Shown piece by piece: positions 16,351 to 20,515 of a stretch of 64,000 nt of DNA (position 1 is the first letter of the stretch; the number at the start of each line of letters is the position of its first letter). The position numbers and the translations under genes were made by a program. Origin of the DNA: Exiguobacterium sp. Leaf196. GTDB lineage: Bacteria; Bacillota; Bacilli; Exiguobacteriales; Exiguobacteriaceae. The notes under the pieces are model-generated. The model was not told where the DNA came from. It made no database searches and worked only from the letters and a program-made list of their open reading frames with translations. The stretch lies in contig NZ_LMPV01000001.1 of the NCBI RefSeq assembly GCF_001423965.1, forward strand, positions 137,908-201,907, written 5' to 3'.

Positions 16351-17828
16351 AAATAGGATTCGTAGGAGCAGGAGTCGGAACACTGCATGCAGCACTTTTG
16401 CTGACAGCAAGACATCCGGGAGTCGAGATTACGATTTTTGAAAAAGAAGCGCATGTCGGTGGTCGATTACGATCCGTCGATTTTGAATCCGGTGGACGCA
16501 TCGATGAAGGTCCGACAATCGTCCTGATGCCAGGTAAGTTGAAAGAGCAGTTGGCAGAAGCAGGCGTGACGGGAGTAAAACTCGAACGGGTGGATCCATT
16601 GTATGACCTTCACTTCGACGACGGGACCGTCGTTACGAAAGTATCTGATGTCGTGGACCAAGCCATTGCGATCGAACGCCAATTCGGCGAAGGTCGTGGA
16701 TTTTATGAATTCATGCATCAAAAAGAAAAGGATTATAAGACGAGTGTATCGAAATTTTTAGAACGTGGTTATCGTCGGAAAACGGAGCTGTTGCACCCAG
16801 AAATGATGCGTCCATTATTACAGATGCACGCTTTAGAGACAGCGCATGATCATTTGAAGCGATACTTCAAGAGTAAATATTTGCGCATGGCATACAGTTT
16901 CCCAACATTTTATATCGGAGGAAATCCGTATACGACACCATCCATCTATGGTTTGATTCCATACCGGGAACAAGCAGAAGGTGTCTGGTATGTAAAAGGC
17001 GGTTATTTCTCACTTGCTGAACGCATGTATGACACATTAGTCGAACGAGGTGTCCGGTTCGTCTTCGAGGCACCCGTTGAACGAGTCGTCGTTGACCAGG
17101 GACAGGCGAAGGAAATCGTCTTACAAGGTGGAACACATGAAGCATTCGATCAAATCGTACTAAATGGAGAGTTTCCATTAATGGAACGTCTTGTGGAAGG
17201 TAAACAACCTAAAACATATACTCCTTCAGGCGGGACGCTATTGCTGTATTTCAAGATGAAAGGGAAAGTTGACTTACCGGTGCATCGATTTTTGATGCCG
17301 AATGACTTGGAACCACTCATGACAAACATCTTTAAAAAAGGACGATTACCTGAACATCCGGCAGTCTATCTGTTCCATCCGAGTCAGATTGATCGTAGTT
17401 TAACAGGAACGGACGATAGCGTCGTCTATTCATTAATTCCTTCTCCCCGTGGCTATGGTGTGAAAGATTATGAAAAAGTAGACTTCGTCGAGACCGTACT
17501 CGAAAAAATCGAGCATCATCATCCCGGATTTCGGGAAAAGATACAAGAAATGAAGATTCGTACACCGAATGATGCACAGGCATTTGGACTATACGAAGGT
17601 GGCAGTTTTGGAATTGCTCCGACGATTCGTCAATCAGCTGCCTTAAAAACACAGGCAAAACCATATCCAGATATCGATCGACTATATGCCGTCGGTGCAT
17701 CGGTGCATCCGTGTGGAGGAGTACCAGTCGTCATGATGGGCGCAACGATACTCGTAAACCGAATGGAACAAGAGATGGGGTGGAAACATGAATTCAGTGA
17801 CGATCCAGAACGCGTATATCAAATGTGA
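16347..17828 (+). CDS. Carotenoid desaturase, CrtN-like (second paralog)
   Basis: This is a second 493-residue member of the phytoene/dehydrosqualene desaturase family, co-translated with the first (ATGA overlap). Family marks: IFEKEAHVGGRL, EGPTIVLMP, DPLYDLHFDDG, FPTFYIGGNPYTTPSIYGLIPY, VKGGYFSLAERM and the C-terminal VGASVHPCGGVPVVMMG. The N-terminal nucleotide motif is odd: GAGVGT where GxGxxG is expected, with Thr in the last glycine position. The C-terminal signature has Cys-Gly-Gly where Pro/Gly-Gly is usual. It may desaturate further, act on a different end of the chain, or form a heteromer with the first. Its last 41 bases overlap crtM in another frame. Confidence 0.82.
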   Translation: MKIGFVGAGVGTLHAALLLTARHPGVEITIFEKEAHVGGRLRSVDFESGGRIDEGPTIVLMPGKLKEQLAEAGVTGVKLERVDPLYDLHFDDGTVVTKVSDVVDQAIAIERQFGEGRGFYEFMHQKEKDYKTSVSKFLERGYRRKTELLHPEMMRPLLQMHALETAHDHLKRYFKSKYLRMAYSFPTFYIGGNPYTTPSIYGLIPYREQAEGVWYVKGGYFSLAERMYDTLVERGVRFVFEAPVERVVVDQGQAKEIVLQGGTHEAFDQIVLNGEFPLMERLVEGKQPKTYTPSGGTLLLYFKMKGKVDLPVHRFLMPNDLEPLMTNIFKKGRLPEHPAVYLFHPSQIDRSLTGTDDSVVYSLIPSPRGYGVKDYEKVDFVETVLEKIEHHHPGFREKIQEMKIRTPNDAQAFGLYEGGSFGIAPTIRQSAALKTQAKPYPDIDRLYAVGASVHPCGGVPVVMMGATILVNRMEQEMGWKHEFSDDPERVYQM

Positions 17829-18621
17829 GGAAGTCATTCAGTCCGGATCTAAAACGTTCTATAAAGCCTTTTCACTCTTACCAAAAGCAGATCGACAAGC
17901 TGTTTATGCGATTTATACATTTTGCCGGTTCCTTGACGATACCGTCGATGAGTCGGATACGCCGAAAGAGAGTTTACTAGCTTTCTTGAATGAATTCAAA
18001 CGATTCCGCAATGGTGAAGTACTAAATAAACCGTTATGGATTGCGTTAGCAGATGTATTTGAACGTTACGAAATGGATGAGACACCCTTTCTCGAACTTG
18101 CGGAAGGTATGCGTTGGGACATCGAGAAAAATCGTTATCAGACGCTTGAGGAGACAGAGCAATACAGCTACTACGTAGCGAGTACTGTCGGTTTGATGTT
18201 GTTGCCCATCCTTGCACCGCAACAGCCTGATCTCCGTAAATCTGCTATTGATCTTGGAATCGCGATGCAACTAACGAATATATTGCGAGACGTCGGAGAA
18301 GATGCAAAACGCGGCCGCATCTACTTGCCCCATTCATGGATGGAGACATACGGTGTCACAGCGGAGTCATTACTCGCTGGTCGCCCTTCAGGAGACTTCA
18401 TTGGTCTTTGGGAAGAGGTTGCACTTCGAGCAGAGCATCTGTATGATGCGGCGATTCCATCGTTTGATCGGTATCCGCGGGAGAGCAGACGCGCTTTAAA
18501 GGCAGCTGCCTTCTTATATCGTGGTATCCTCGATGCGGCACGGGATAATCATTACGACGTCTTTACGAAGCGGGCGTACGTCAGCCGTTGGCAAAAGATG
18601 AAGTTGCTCGCAACGATTTAA
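17788..18621 (+). CDS. crtM: Dehydrosqualene/phytoene synthase CrtM
   Basis: CrtM joins two prenyl diphosphates head to head, the committed step of carotenoid synthesis; with farnesyl diphosphate it gives C30 dehydrosqualene. The 277-residue protein has both aspartate-rich motifs: FCRFLDDTVDES (first) and TNILRDVGEDAKRGRIYLP (second). An SRTFY-type start is seen as SKTFYKAFSLLP. The ATG lies inside the preceding gene and follows GATGGGGTGG, so its translation is coupled. It ends the operon, 4 bases before a very long bidirectional terminator. Chain length (C30 versus C40) is inferred from the CrtN/CrtP company it keeps. Confidence 0.9.
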   Translation: MNSVTIQNAYIKCEEVIQSGSKTFYKAFSLLPKADRQAVYAIYTFCRFLDDTVDESDTPKESLLAFLNEFKRFRNGEVLNKPLWIALADVFERYEMDETPFLELAEGMRWDIEKNRYQTLEETEQYSYYVASTVGLMLLPILAPQQPDLRKSAIDLGIAMQLTNILRDVGEDAKRGRIYLPHSWMETYGVTAESLLAGRPSGDFIGLWEEVALRAEHLYDAAIPSFDRYPRESRRALKAAAFLYRGILDAARDNHYDVFTKRAYVSRWQKMKLLATI

Positions 18622-18625
18622 TATA

Positions 18626-18677
18626 AGACCATAGAAAAAAGACCTTGGCGGGGACCAAGGTCTTTTTTCTATGGTCT
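18626..18677. terminator. 23-bp bidirectional terminator with TCCCCG/CGGGGA loop
   Basis: A perfect 23-base inverted repeat (18626-18648 against 18655-18677) closes a six-base loop, CGGGGA on plus and TCCCCG on minus. Internal A6/T6 runs make it a terminator in both directions: for crtM on plus and for the proposed minus-strand RNA. Confidence 0.92.
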
Positions 18678-18980
18678 GAGACCGGGGAGTCTCAGATTAC
18701 TTCTACACCAGAGCGAACATCTGGACTACGAGATAGGTCTGTTTCGACCACGGGGATGGTCTTTTCTTTATCGAGCTATCTGTGGACCATTCGGATGAGA
18801 CGATCTAAGGGGGAACGTCGTAAGTCATGCGAATGGACACACGATGAGTCACGTGATGAAATGGGTGGGTCCCATTTGATTTCGCTGGTTAGAAAAAGTA
18901 AGTTCTTCAACGCTCTTGACTCGGGGAAGTCACCTTGCGCTTGATTGAGGATGTGGGGTCAATCACTACCTCTTGAACTC
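18632..18980 (-). ncRNA. Candidate structured regulatory RNA with repeated C-rich hairpin loops
   Basis: The 420-base gap between crtM and crtP has no credible protein but is dense in perfect hairpins. In minus-strand order: 18965-18942 (7 bp, loop CCCCACATCC); 18932-18917 (5 bp, loop TCCCCG); 18877-18859 (7 bp, loop ACCCA); 18841-18781 (TGTG + CCATTCG outer helix, inner GACG/CGTC with loop TTCCCCCTTAGAT); 18781-18731 (AGATAG/CTATCT enclosing GACCA-TCCCCG-TGGTC at 18761-18746); 18724-18708 (5 bp, loop TGTTCGC); 18696-18675 (8 bp, loop TCCCCG); and the terminator, loop TCCCCG. Stem sequences differ while the loop is constant, which argues for selection on the loop. C-rich loops of this kind in staphylococcal RNAIII/Rsa RNAs and Listeria LhrC pair with ribosome binding sites. 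Ends are inferred from the promoter-like site and terminator. The opposite orientation (GGGGA loops) is less likely because it lacks a 3' terminator. Confidence 0.6.
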
Positions 18981-18986
18981 GAAGTA

Positions 18987-19015
18987 ATCGTATCAAATCT
19001 TAGTTGTCCGTACAA
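18987..19015 (-). promoter_or_regulatory. Promoter-like site for the candidate RNA
   Basis: On the minus strand: TTGTAC (19015-19010), exactly 17 bases, TACGAT (18992-18987). Each box matches the consensus only partly (3/6 and 4/6). The predicted start near 18980 falls just before the first hairpin. The -35 region also forms a near-palindrome TTGTACGGACAA that could be an operator. Confidence 0.4.
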
Positions 19016-19042
19016 GTGATTGATATGCAATTCACATAACGT

Positions 19043-20515
19043 TCACAGGGTAGCGGCGACAGCAGAGACGATTCGTTCACTTGCTAGTTTTCCTGAAAGC
19101 GTCACCATTGGACTACCACCACCAGGATGCGTTGATCCACCAGCAAAAAACAAATTGTGAACATTCTTTGAACGGTTGCTCGGACGGAGGAAAGACGACC
19201 GGATGCCATTGGATGACAAGCCATACAACGAGCCGTGATAAGCAAAGAAGGTTTGTTCGATATCCTGTGGTGTGACCCGTTGTTCGTAGACGACATCTGA
19301 TGAAATATCAATTCCAAACGACTGCAACCGTTGATTGATCAGTTGATCATACGTATCAAAATCAATCGCATGTCCAGTATCTGTCGCAGGCGCGTTGACG
19401 AGTACAAACAGATTGTCACCCGCTTGTCCCATTTCTGGGGCTGTGACGGAAGAATTGGAGATATAGATCGTCGGTTCCTCCGCATAACGTTTTTCATCAA
19501 AAAGTGCTTTGAACTCTGCTTCGTAATCTGAAGAGAAGAAGACGTTATGATGAGCCAGTCCTTCGATTCGCCGTGAGAGACCGATGCAACGGACATAGGC
19601 AGAAATGGACGGTTCGACTTGAGCAGGCGTCGGATTTTTAAAATCAGGTCGTGCGGTTTCTGAGATCAGACGTGGATATTGTGTCAACAAATCACCGTTC
19701 ATGACGACGAAGTCGACGGGTAGATACTCTAAATGATTCAATTCGATTTCCGTTGCTTGTCCGTCGACGACTTCGATCTGGGTCACCTCATCTCCAAGCC
19801 GGAAGACGACACCGAGTTCTTTTGCACGTCGAGCGAATCCTTCTGCGATTGCTGTATTGCCGCCATTCGTGAAGTAGACGCCGTCATTTAGTTCTAAATG
19901 AGCGATTAAACTGAAGGTAGCAGGTGTTTGATACGGACTGCTCCCGATATATGTCGCATAACGATCAAGTGCCTGAATTAACTCTTTATCCTTAAAGTAG
20001 TGTTTATGCAGTCCATGGAGACTTTGAAAGGGATGCACTTTTAGCATGTCACGCCAAAGGGAAGGGCGGACATATGAATCGATATTTGTGAAAAATTGTC
20101 GTTTGGCGATCGTATGCAACTTCGCGACTTCCTCTTGGTAACCGGTAATATCGTTTTTCGCCAACTGACCGTTCGTGAAACGATCTACTTCTGTTCGCAT
20201 CGCTTCTCGCCCAGACGAAAAGGTTAACGTGCGTCCGTCTGAAAAGTGATTGATCGTATGGCGCTCGAGTTTCGTAAATGTAAAGTATTCATCGGGATCT
20301 GCTCCGGACTCGAGAATGACAGACTGAAAGACTTCCGGCATTGTGATCGTATTCGGTCCGAAGTCGAAGCGATGTCCTTCTGTGACGATCGGCATCATCT
20401 TGCCGCCAATATGTGCATTACGCTCGACGACAGTGACACGAAACCCTTTTGCCGCTAATGAAATGGCGGCGCTGAGTCCACCAAGACCGGCTCCGATGAC
20501 AGCTATATGTTTCAT
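19043..20515 (-). CDS. crtP: Carotenoid oxygenase/desaturase, CrtP-like
   Basis: This is the third CrtN/CrtI-family flavoprotein of the locus (490 residues). It has an intact VIGAGLGGLSAAISLA motif, RFDFGPNTITMP, a YATYIGSSPYQTPATFSLIAHLE segment and the C-terminal GGSTHPGGGSPMVTLSGK. These segments resemble staphylococcal CrtP (YVGSSSYDAPAVLSML, GGSVNPGGGMPMVTLSGQ), which oxidises the terminal methyl of diaponeurosporene toward the carboxylic acid. It is last in a minus-strand operon behind the glycosyltransferase (15-base gap, AAGGAGG before its ATG). Function is inferred from resemblance; a desaturase role is not excluded. Confidence 0.8.
   Translation of the reverse strand: MKHIAVIGAGLGGLSAAISLAAKGFRVTVVERNAHIGGKMMPIVTEGHRFDFGPNTITMPEVFQSVILESGADPDEYFTFTKLERHTINHFSDGRTLTFSSGREAMRTEVDRFTNGQLAKNDITGYQEEVAKLHTIAKRQFFTNIDSYVRPSLWRDMLKVHPFQSLHGLHKHYFKDKELIQALDRYATYIGSSPYQTPATFSLIAHLELNDGVYFTNGGNTAIAEGFARRAKELGVVFRLGDEVTQIEVVDGQATEIELNHLEYLPVDFVVMNGDLLTQYPRLISETARPDFKNPTPAQVEPSISAYVRCIGLSRRIEGLAHHNVFFSSDYEAEFKALFDEKRYAEEPTIYISNSSVTAPEMGQAGDNLFVLVNAPATDTGHAIDFDTYDQLINQRLQSFGIDISSDVVYEQRVTPQDIEQTFFAYHGSLYGLSSNGIRSSFLRPSNRSKNVHNLFFAGGSTHPGGGSPMVTLSGKLASERIVSAVAATL

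Follow-up and report, generated by a model that had tools for sequence, protein, structure and literature searches.

A candidate small RNA with six to seven C-run loops, conserved throughout the Exiguobacterium family and probably directed at Shine-Dalgarno sites

Several bacterial small RNAs (sRNAs) are reported to meet their mRNAs at the ribosome-binding site by way of C-rich stretches. The UCCC motifs of LhrC, RNAIII, RsaE and FsrA pair with Shine-Dalgarno (SD) sequences (PMC4132741), and pairing with ribosome sites has been described for the C-rich regions of sRNAs including RsaE/RoxS, FsrA and IsrR (PMC4409812, PMC8216469, PMC9410917). One mRNA, sucCD, is a target of both RoxS and RsaE (PMC4409812). 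Here we describe an array of hairpins with C-run loops in a 64,000-nucleotide stretch of the genome of Exiguobacterium sp. Leaf196 (hereafter, the window), which a first, sequence-only reading had taken to be a minus-strand regulatory RNA acting on SD sites through many loops. We consider it likely that the array is a single-copy, trans-acting C-rich-loop sRNA that is conserved throughout the Exiguobacterium family and pairs with SD sites. In our best reading it is probably a new family among the known C-rich-loop sRNAs (RoxS/RsaE, FsrA, LhrC and IsrR), unusual for its six to seven C-loops. No description of it was found in the open-licence literature; a study of Exiguobacterium genomics (PMC10837837) gives a count of predicted sRNAs, among which a bare prediction of this RNA is possible. 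Such an RNA would give a little-studied lineage of the Bacillales an sRNA that is present family-wide and matches no Rfam family.

The array lies within the 421 bases that separate a squalene/phytoene-synthase gene (17788-18621, plus strand) from a phytoene-desaturase-family gene (19043-20515, minus strand; NCBIfam TIGR02734), the stop codon of which occupies 19045-19043. The only ORF of at least 60 aa in this gap (99 aa, plus strand) has no Pfam match. A small ORF in the 5′ domain of the array (GTG at about 18966) was considered as a conserved coding gene and rejected, as it contains single-base indels in two genomes (G015 and G006) and is missing in the sister genus. The features of the locus are as follows, in the order in which they would be read on the minus strand:

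19032-19047, minus strand: upstream element TG-TGAACGTTATGTGA, with two TGTGAA repeats 11 bp apart in the window's genus
18987-19015, minus strand: promoter, with -35 TTGTAC, a 17-nt spacer and an extended -10 TG-A-TACGAT (TG one base before the hexamer)
18626-18980, minus strand: predicted sRNA of about 345-355 nt, starting at about 18980 and ending within or after the T-run 18640-18635, on the basis of promoter, terminator and conservation
18900-18980, minus strand: 5′ domain closed by helix P1, in which GAGUUC (18980-18975) pairs with GAACUU (18905-18900)
18942-18965, minus strand: hairpin H1, loop CCCCACATCC, the loop being present in 19 of 19 genomes of the genus
18917-18932, minus strand: hairpin H2, hexaloop TCCCCG on a 5-bp stem (GACT/AGTC versus GGCT/AGCC)
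18859-18877, minus strand: hairpin H3, loop ACCCA (CCCCA in G006, TTTCCCCA in the sister genus)
18787-18836, minus strand: hairpin H4, a long hairpin with loop TTCCCCCTTAGAT, within which TTCCCCCTTAG is identical in 38 of 38 genomes
18746-18761, minus strand: hairpin H5, hexaloop TCCCCG on a 5-bp stem, with 11 distinct five-pair stems among the relatives
18675-18696, minus strand: hairpin H6, hexaloop TCCCCG on an 8-bp stem, with 8 distinct five-pair stems among the relatives
18626-18677, minus strand: hairpin H7, the terminator hairpin, hexaloop TCCCCG on a 23-bp stem, with T-run 18640-18635

Both inspection by reading and a script confirmed that the hexaloop TCCCCG caps four perfect and mutually unrelated minus-strand stems of 5, 5, 8 and 23 bp, and the loops that had been named for H1, H3 and H4 are likewise present on that strand. 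The claim that the hexaloop is constant holds within the window's genus, where H2, H6 and H7 carry it in 19 of 19 genomes and H5 in 18 of 19 (TCCCCCG in G006), but fails in the sister genus, where the bases flanking the C-run differ in every hexaloop except that of H2: there the loops are TTCCCCA in H5 (TTCCCTA, with three C's, in one genome), TTCCCCG in H6 and TCCCCCG in H7. The C-run itself is kept in the sister-genus loops from H3 on although the flanking bases change, and the exact loop of H2 is identical in 38 of 38 genomes. H3 has just three C's in 18 of the 19 genomes of the window's genus. In an alignment of the 38 sequences, no C-loop is found at the place of H1 in the sister genus; the C-run hairpins number seven per array in the window's genus and six in the sister genus, the terminator loop among them. 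The stem of H1 is shorter in G015 and G006, and RNAalifold favours a GAGG/CCUC pairing instead. What stays invariant in the same alignment is the two arms of P1, the loop of H2, UUCCCCCUUAG in H4 and the other C-runs from H3 on, while the spacers between hairpins vary freely.

How widely is the array distributed? A DNA search found the region in all 19 genomes of the window's genus; nine copies, including the window's own, are 98-100% identical, nine are 75-78% identical and that of G006 is alignable in parts only. In the sister genus the same search gave no array and one weak match in each of 2 of 19 genomes. These two matches were rejected as copies, because each falls within a long ORF (of 372 or 439 aa) and is not surrounded by an array. 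The DNA search is blind to the sister-genus copies because the copies of the two genera are too diverged; when located by way of the desaturase gene, the array was found immediately after the stop codon of that gene in all 19 genomes of the sister genus. For the family, made up of these two genera, this means an array behind a gene of the carotenoid-desaturase family in 38 of 38 genomes. Model R1, a covariance model built on the 5′ domain, detects one copy in each of the 38 and, at E 0.01 with stricter filters, none in the other 360 of the 398 genomes searched in the class. An exact scan with the H4 block of a collection of species genomes, from which the window's genome or near records may be absent, returned nine stretches, all titled Exiguobacterium. 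The C-run loops, which the sequence-only reading expected to find in related strains, are present in the arrays of all 38 relatives examined. The Rfam search that it had proposed gave no family at gathering score in the whole window (4227 families), and a scan of the loci of three relatives gave no match up to E 1. Under relaxed thresholds the top-scoring families, FsrA among them, reach chance level only.

Compensatory changes in the stems had also been expected, and this expectation was borne out in part: by shuffling, covariation is significant only for H5 and H6. In these shuffles, which ignore kinship although related genomes are non-independent samples, the pairing of H5 (98% of cells paired) was equalled in 0 of 2000 and that of H6 (97.5% paired, with changes on both sides at five of five positions) in 2 of 2000, the corresponding numbers being 93 of 2000 for H3 and 166 of 2000 for H7, while H2 (428 of 2000) and H4 (1022 of 2000) have too little stem variation. 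The arms of P1 are invariant in 38 of 38 genomes, so that this helix gives covariation nothing to test. The stems of H3 include AAATGGG, CAAG, TAAG and CGAG, each with a matching partner. The inner stem of H4 is GACG/CGTC in the window's genus versus GATG/CATC in the sister genus, and its outer arms differ between the clades, their pairing being judged by eye. The inner stem of H7 is CTTGG, CTCG or TTTTGG among the relatives, with the C-run of the loop retained. RNAalifold on the 19 genus sequences reports 14 pairs changed on both sides. As far as sequence can tell, the core of the first reading, namely a minus-strand, multi-site C-rich-loop RNA acting against SD sites, is supported by loops in 38 relatives, compensating stems and the lack of an Rfam family.

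The promoter-like TTGTAC-17-TACGAT that had been placed ahead of the array was found at 19015-18987 on the minus strand. A consensus promoter scan does not list it; both hexamers are invariant in 19 of 19 genus genomes, and the same place in the sister genus holds TTGTCG and a TGATAAT/TGATAAC -10 region. The conserved unit reaches beyond 19015, to about 19047. Its upstream element is TGAACGTTATGTGA in 18 of 19 genus genomes (with one base different in G007) and TGAACATTTTGTGA in 19 of 19 sister-genus genomes, and its first TGA doubles as the desaturase stop codon, so that element and gene are locked together. A scan of both strands of an 844-kb sample from four genomes gave the motif GAAC[AG][AT]T[AT]TGTGA three times, each time at an array.

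A near-identical element was found elsewhere. Searching the 38 genomes with the RoxS/RsaE model (RF01820) gave nothing over the cut-off and 15 sub-threshold places in 14 genomes, all away from the array, a Bacillus subtilis control being positive. In 13 of the 19 sister-genus genomes (L209-L218 and L220-L222, with about 700 bases around each model match), these places hold sRNAs below the Rfam cut-off which we take to be RoxS-like by the 5′ signature of B. subtilis RoxS, and which occupy a locus of their own, separate from the array. All 13 display GTCCCCGC in a loop and TCCCCG in the terminator loop, and 7 of 13 an extra TTCCCC, the loop type of the array. In G006 (L219), there is a weak RsaE-like candidate (39 bits against a cut-off of 79) with C-runs and with TTTTGTGACA upstream, without the layout of the element. 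As for RoxS in the window's genus, the RsaE model, which is not fitted to these genomes, matches nothing at E 0.1 in 18 of the 19, and the stretches that were sampled likewise show no such RNA. The sister-genus RoxS-like RNAs are preceded in 13 of 13 cases by a 14-nt element with one or two differences from that of the array (TGAACATTATGTGA in 11 genomes and TGAACAATATGTGA in 2), at 22 bases from TTGT as against 21 at the array (38 of 38). The near identity of the two elements suggests that one regulator is common to the array RNA and the RoxS-like RNAs. Repeats of TGTGAA one helical turn apart suit OmpR-type regulators, and the element presumably resembles a ResD site. By analogy with Bacillus, where roxS is reported to depend on ResD and to have a conserved site near -65 (PMC4409812), the array promoter might be controlled jointly with RoxS, the shared element being under ResDE-type redox control; a ResD consensus was not found in a literature search. 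If the shared element is a ResD site, the array would be a second sRNA arm of the RoxS redox circuit. Two other candidates for the regulator were rejected: a half-site alone resembles the Rex operator TTGTGAAW4TTCACAA (PMC2883068), and no Fur box, as expected for control like that of FsrA or IsrR, was seen on inspection of the promoter by eye.

Which mRNAs would such loops reach? The complement of the H4 loop at SD distance (CTAAGGGGGAA-N2-8-ATG) occurs at nine places in five genomes, compared with four for a reversed control. Two of the nine are the RNA gene itself and seven are ribosome sites, six of these seven lying before catabolic or electron-transfer enzymes (some named by our reading). 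The seven belong to sucC (in two sister-genus genomes), a 2-oxoacid dehydrogenase E2 gene (in two), a leucine-dehydrogenase-like gene, the gene for the ETF alpha subunit and a PTS transporter gene. Complementarity to the SDs spans 9-11 nt; the G-runs of the targets are short and also make good SDs, so that such matches, and conservation of a second G-run, are expected anyway. The E2 gene, which we take to be bkdB, was rejected as a family-wide target: the exact site is present in 16 of 19 genus genomes, but all 11 genes fetched from the sister genus have a site of the AGGAGG type (four still with GGGG).

All 30 sucC orthologs that were fetched have a leader with two G-runs (AAAGGGGACTAAGGGGGAA in 19 of 19 from the sister genus and AAAGGGGTTAAGGGGGAT in 11 of 11 from the window's genus), a count that omits 8 of the 38 genomes, two of which, G006 and G014, show the double run in a separate pattern scan. 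The second G-run is the SD, and the first is unnecessary for an SD. Two separate G4 runs between -45 and -1 were found in 3 of 427 sampled genes, the gene sets behind these target statistics being roughly predicted by a simple ORF script. A stricter double-run pattern in eight genomes gave 27 rows (25 places) compared with 8 for the reversed control; it includes sucC in 8 of 8 genomes and, as judged by eye, every other gene except an oxidoreductase in one genome each. This pyridine-nucleotide oxidoreductase (Pfam Pyr_redox_2; NADH-dehydrogenase-like by our reading), whose leader has the double G-run AGGGGAACTAAGGGGGATTTTA in 3 of 4 genomes of the window's genus (L201, L195 and L197), is the second-best double-site candidate. 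In the window's genome (G000), 8 of 237 sampled genes outscore sucC with the loops. Ribosome sites with GGGGA inside the window had been put forward as local targets, but 36 of the 238 roughly predicted genes of the genome have GGGGA in the 25 nt upstream. At that rate a few such sites are to be expected in the window, so that the local list is no evidence. Three successive genes in the same genome (L098:4175-8079), glycine-cleavage-like as named by eye, all have AGGGGGA ribosome sites. On these data the probable targets are ribosome sites with G-runs in front of catabolic genes, sucC foremost; in the sister genus, the sucC sites could instead be those of the RoxS-like RNA.

In the mechanism that we propose, the C-run loops would start base-pairing with G-run SD regions, and this pairing would block ribosome binding and perhaps change mRNA stability too. 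The invariant H4 loop, UUCCCCCUUAG, would be the main recognition loop and the hexaloops would make generic G4 contacts, and having more than one loop would let a single RNA hold on to a leader that contains two G-runs (sucC), or bind several mRNAs. The regulon might be central catabolism, comprising succinyl-CoA synthetase, a branched-chain-type oxoacid dehydrogenase and the pyridine-nucleotide oxidoreductase. A fuller version, which we offer tentatively and hold to be possible but doubtful, is a multivalent anti-SD array with six to seven independent C-loop heads, two of which would occupy the tandem G-runs of sucC, working beside RoxS under a shared redox-responsive element as a high-valency second arm that controls NADH-producing catabolism. 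With six to seven loops per molecule and a predicted main target with two tandem sites, the array would be a natural test of why C-rich sRNAs hold redundant loops.

The reading depends on the strand. A functional RNA on the plus strand would display CGGGGA loops, which could sequester either CsrA, a protein that recognizes GGA in loops, or a C-rich sRNA of the RoxS kind. The genome does encode CsrA (89.3 bits), the GGGG loops complement the C-regions of the sister-genus RoxS-like RNAs, and the G-rich sponge RosA has been described as a precedent (PMC8216469). Raw fold energy is also lower on the plus strand, both in the window (-132.3 versus -125.7 on the minus strand) and in four of seven representatives. 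Compared with its shuffles, however, the window region folds better on the minus strand (z -7.2) than on the plus strand (z -4.7), and the z of the minus strand is the stronger in 7 of 7 representatives. The minus-strand pairs over the distinct stem-loops comprise 317 Watson-Crick, 20 G-U, 3 A-C and 7 other pairs; this excess of G-U over A-C favours the minus strand, as neither a DNA palindrome nor a plus-strand RNA would give it. In addition, the last hairpin of the sister genus is followed by a T-run on the minus (RNA) strand only, making a one-sided terminator, and the conserved promoter-like block reads minus. With the minus strand favoured as the functional one, and its transcription predicted, a plus-strand sponge appears very improbable.

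A minus-strand RNA could still act otherwise than by pairing with mRNA, its repeated C-loops titrating an RNA-binding protein as CsrB does CsrA. One short loop repeated on unrelated stems is indeed the architecture of a titrating RNA, and there are more C-loops than one antisense site needs; but the invariant 11-nt loop of H4 matches the SDs of catabolic genes, and no regulator that binds C-runs is known to us. The C-loop sRNAs of related bacteria that have been tested are reported to bind mRNA (PMC4132741, PMC4409812). We regard titration of a protein as unlikely. Another reading deprives the array of any role in trans, regarding it either as a structured 3′ UTR belonging to the desaturase operon or as a convergent-terminator region. 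The terminator scan finds no terminator in the 60-odd bases from the desaturase stop codon to the array, so that read-through is possible. This reading seems to us quite improbable in view of the conserved promoter and upstream element that the array has of its own, and of loops that are constant over two genera; the conservation far exceeds that of a terminator, while the spacers between hairpins change freely. The reading that we prefer remains a minus-strand sRNA pairing with SD sites.

Like the C-rich-loop anti-SD class, the array has C-runs in unpaired loops, the terminator loop included, and complementarity to ribosome sites. RoxS/RsaE likewise directs C-rich regions against SDs and has sucCD as a target (PMC4409812), but the array has no match to its model, RF01820, at any listed score. 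LhrC of Listeria is reported to have redundant UCCC motifs, one in the terminator loop, each able to bind a target (PMC4132741); it has three motifs per RNA and five RNA copies, whereas the array has six to seven loops in a single copy of about 350 nt. The 6C/B11 RNA of Mycobacterium, in which either of two C-run loops represses the G-run leader of one target (PMC10470900), resembles the array in its loops, but it belongs to another phylum and the array has no Rfam match to 6C. FsrA of Bacillus (RF02273) aims C-rich regions at central-metabolism mRNAs (PMC8216469), as we propose for the array, on which its model scores at chance level (18.6 bits against a gathering score of 80, E 0.21). IsrR of Staphylococcus, compared by Rfam scan alone, is under iron/Fur regulation, as the array does not appear to be. 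Sponges of the CsrB/RsmZ type share with the array many hairpins with one short repeated loop, but theirs are GGA loops, whereas the favoured strand of the array displays C-runs and GGA falls on its plus strand. The array RNA differs from the known C-rich-loop sRNAs in size, valency, locus and single copy, and, by analogy, it probably works like them.
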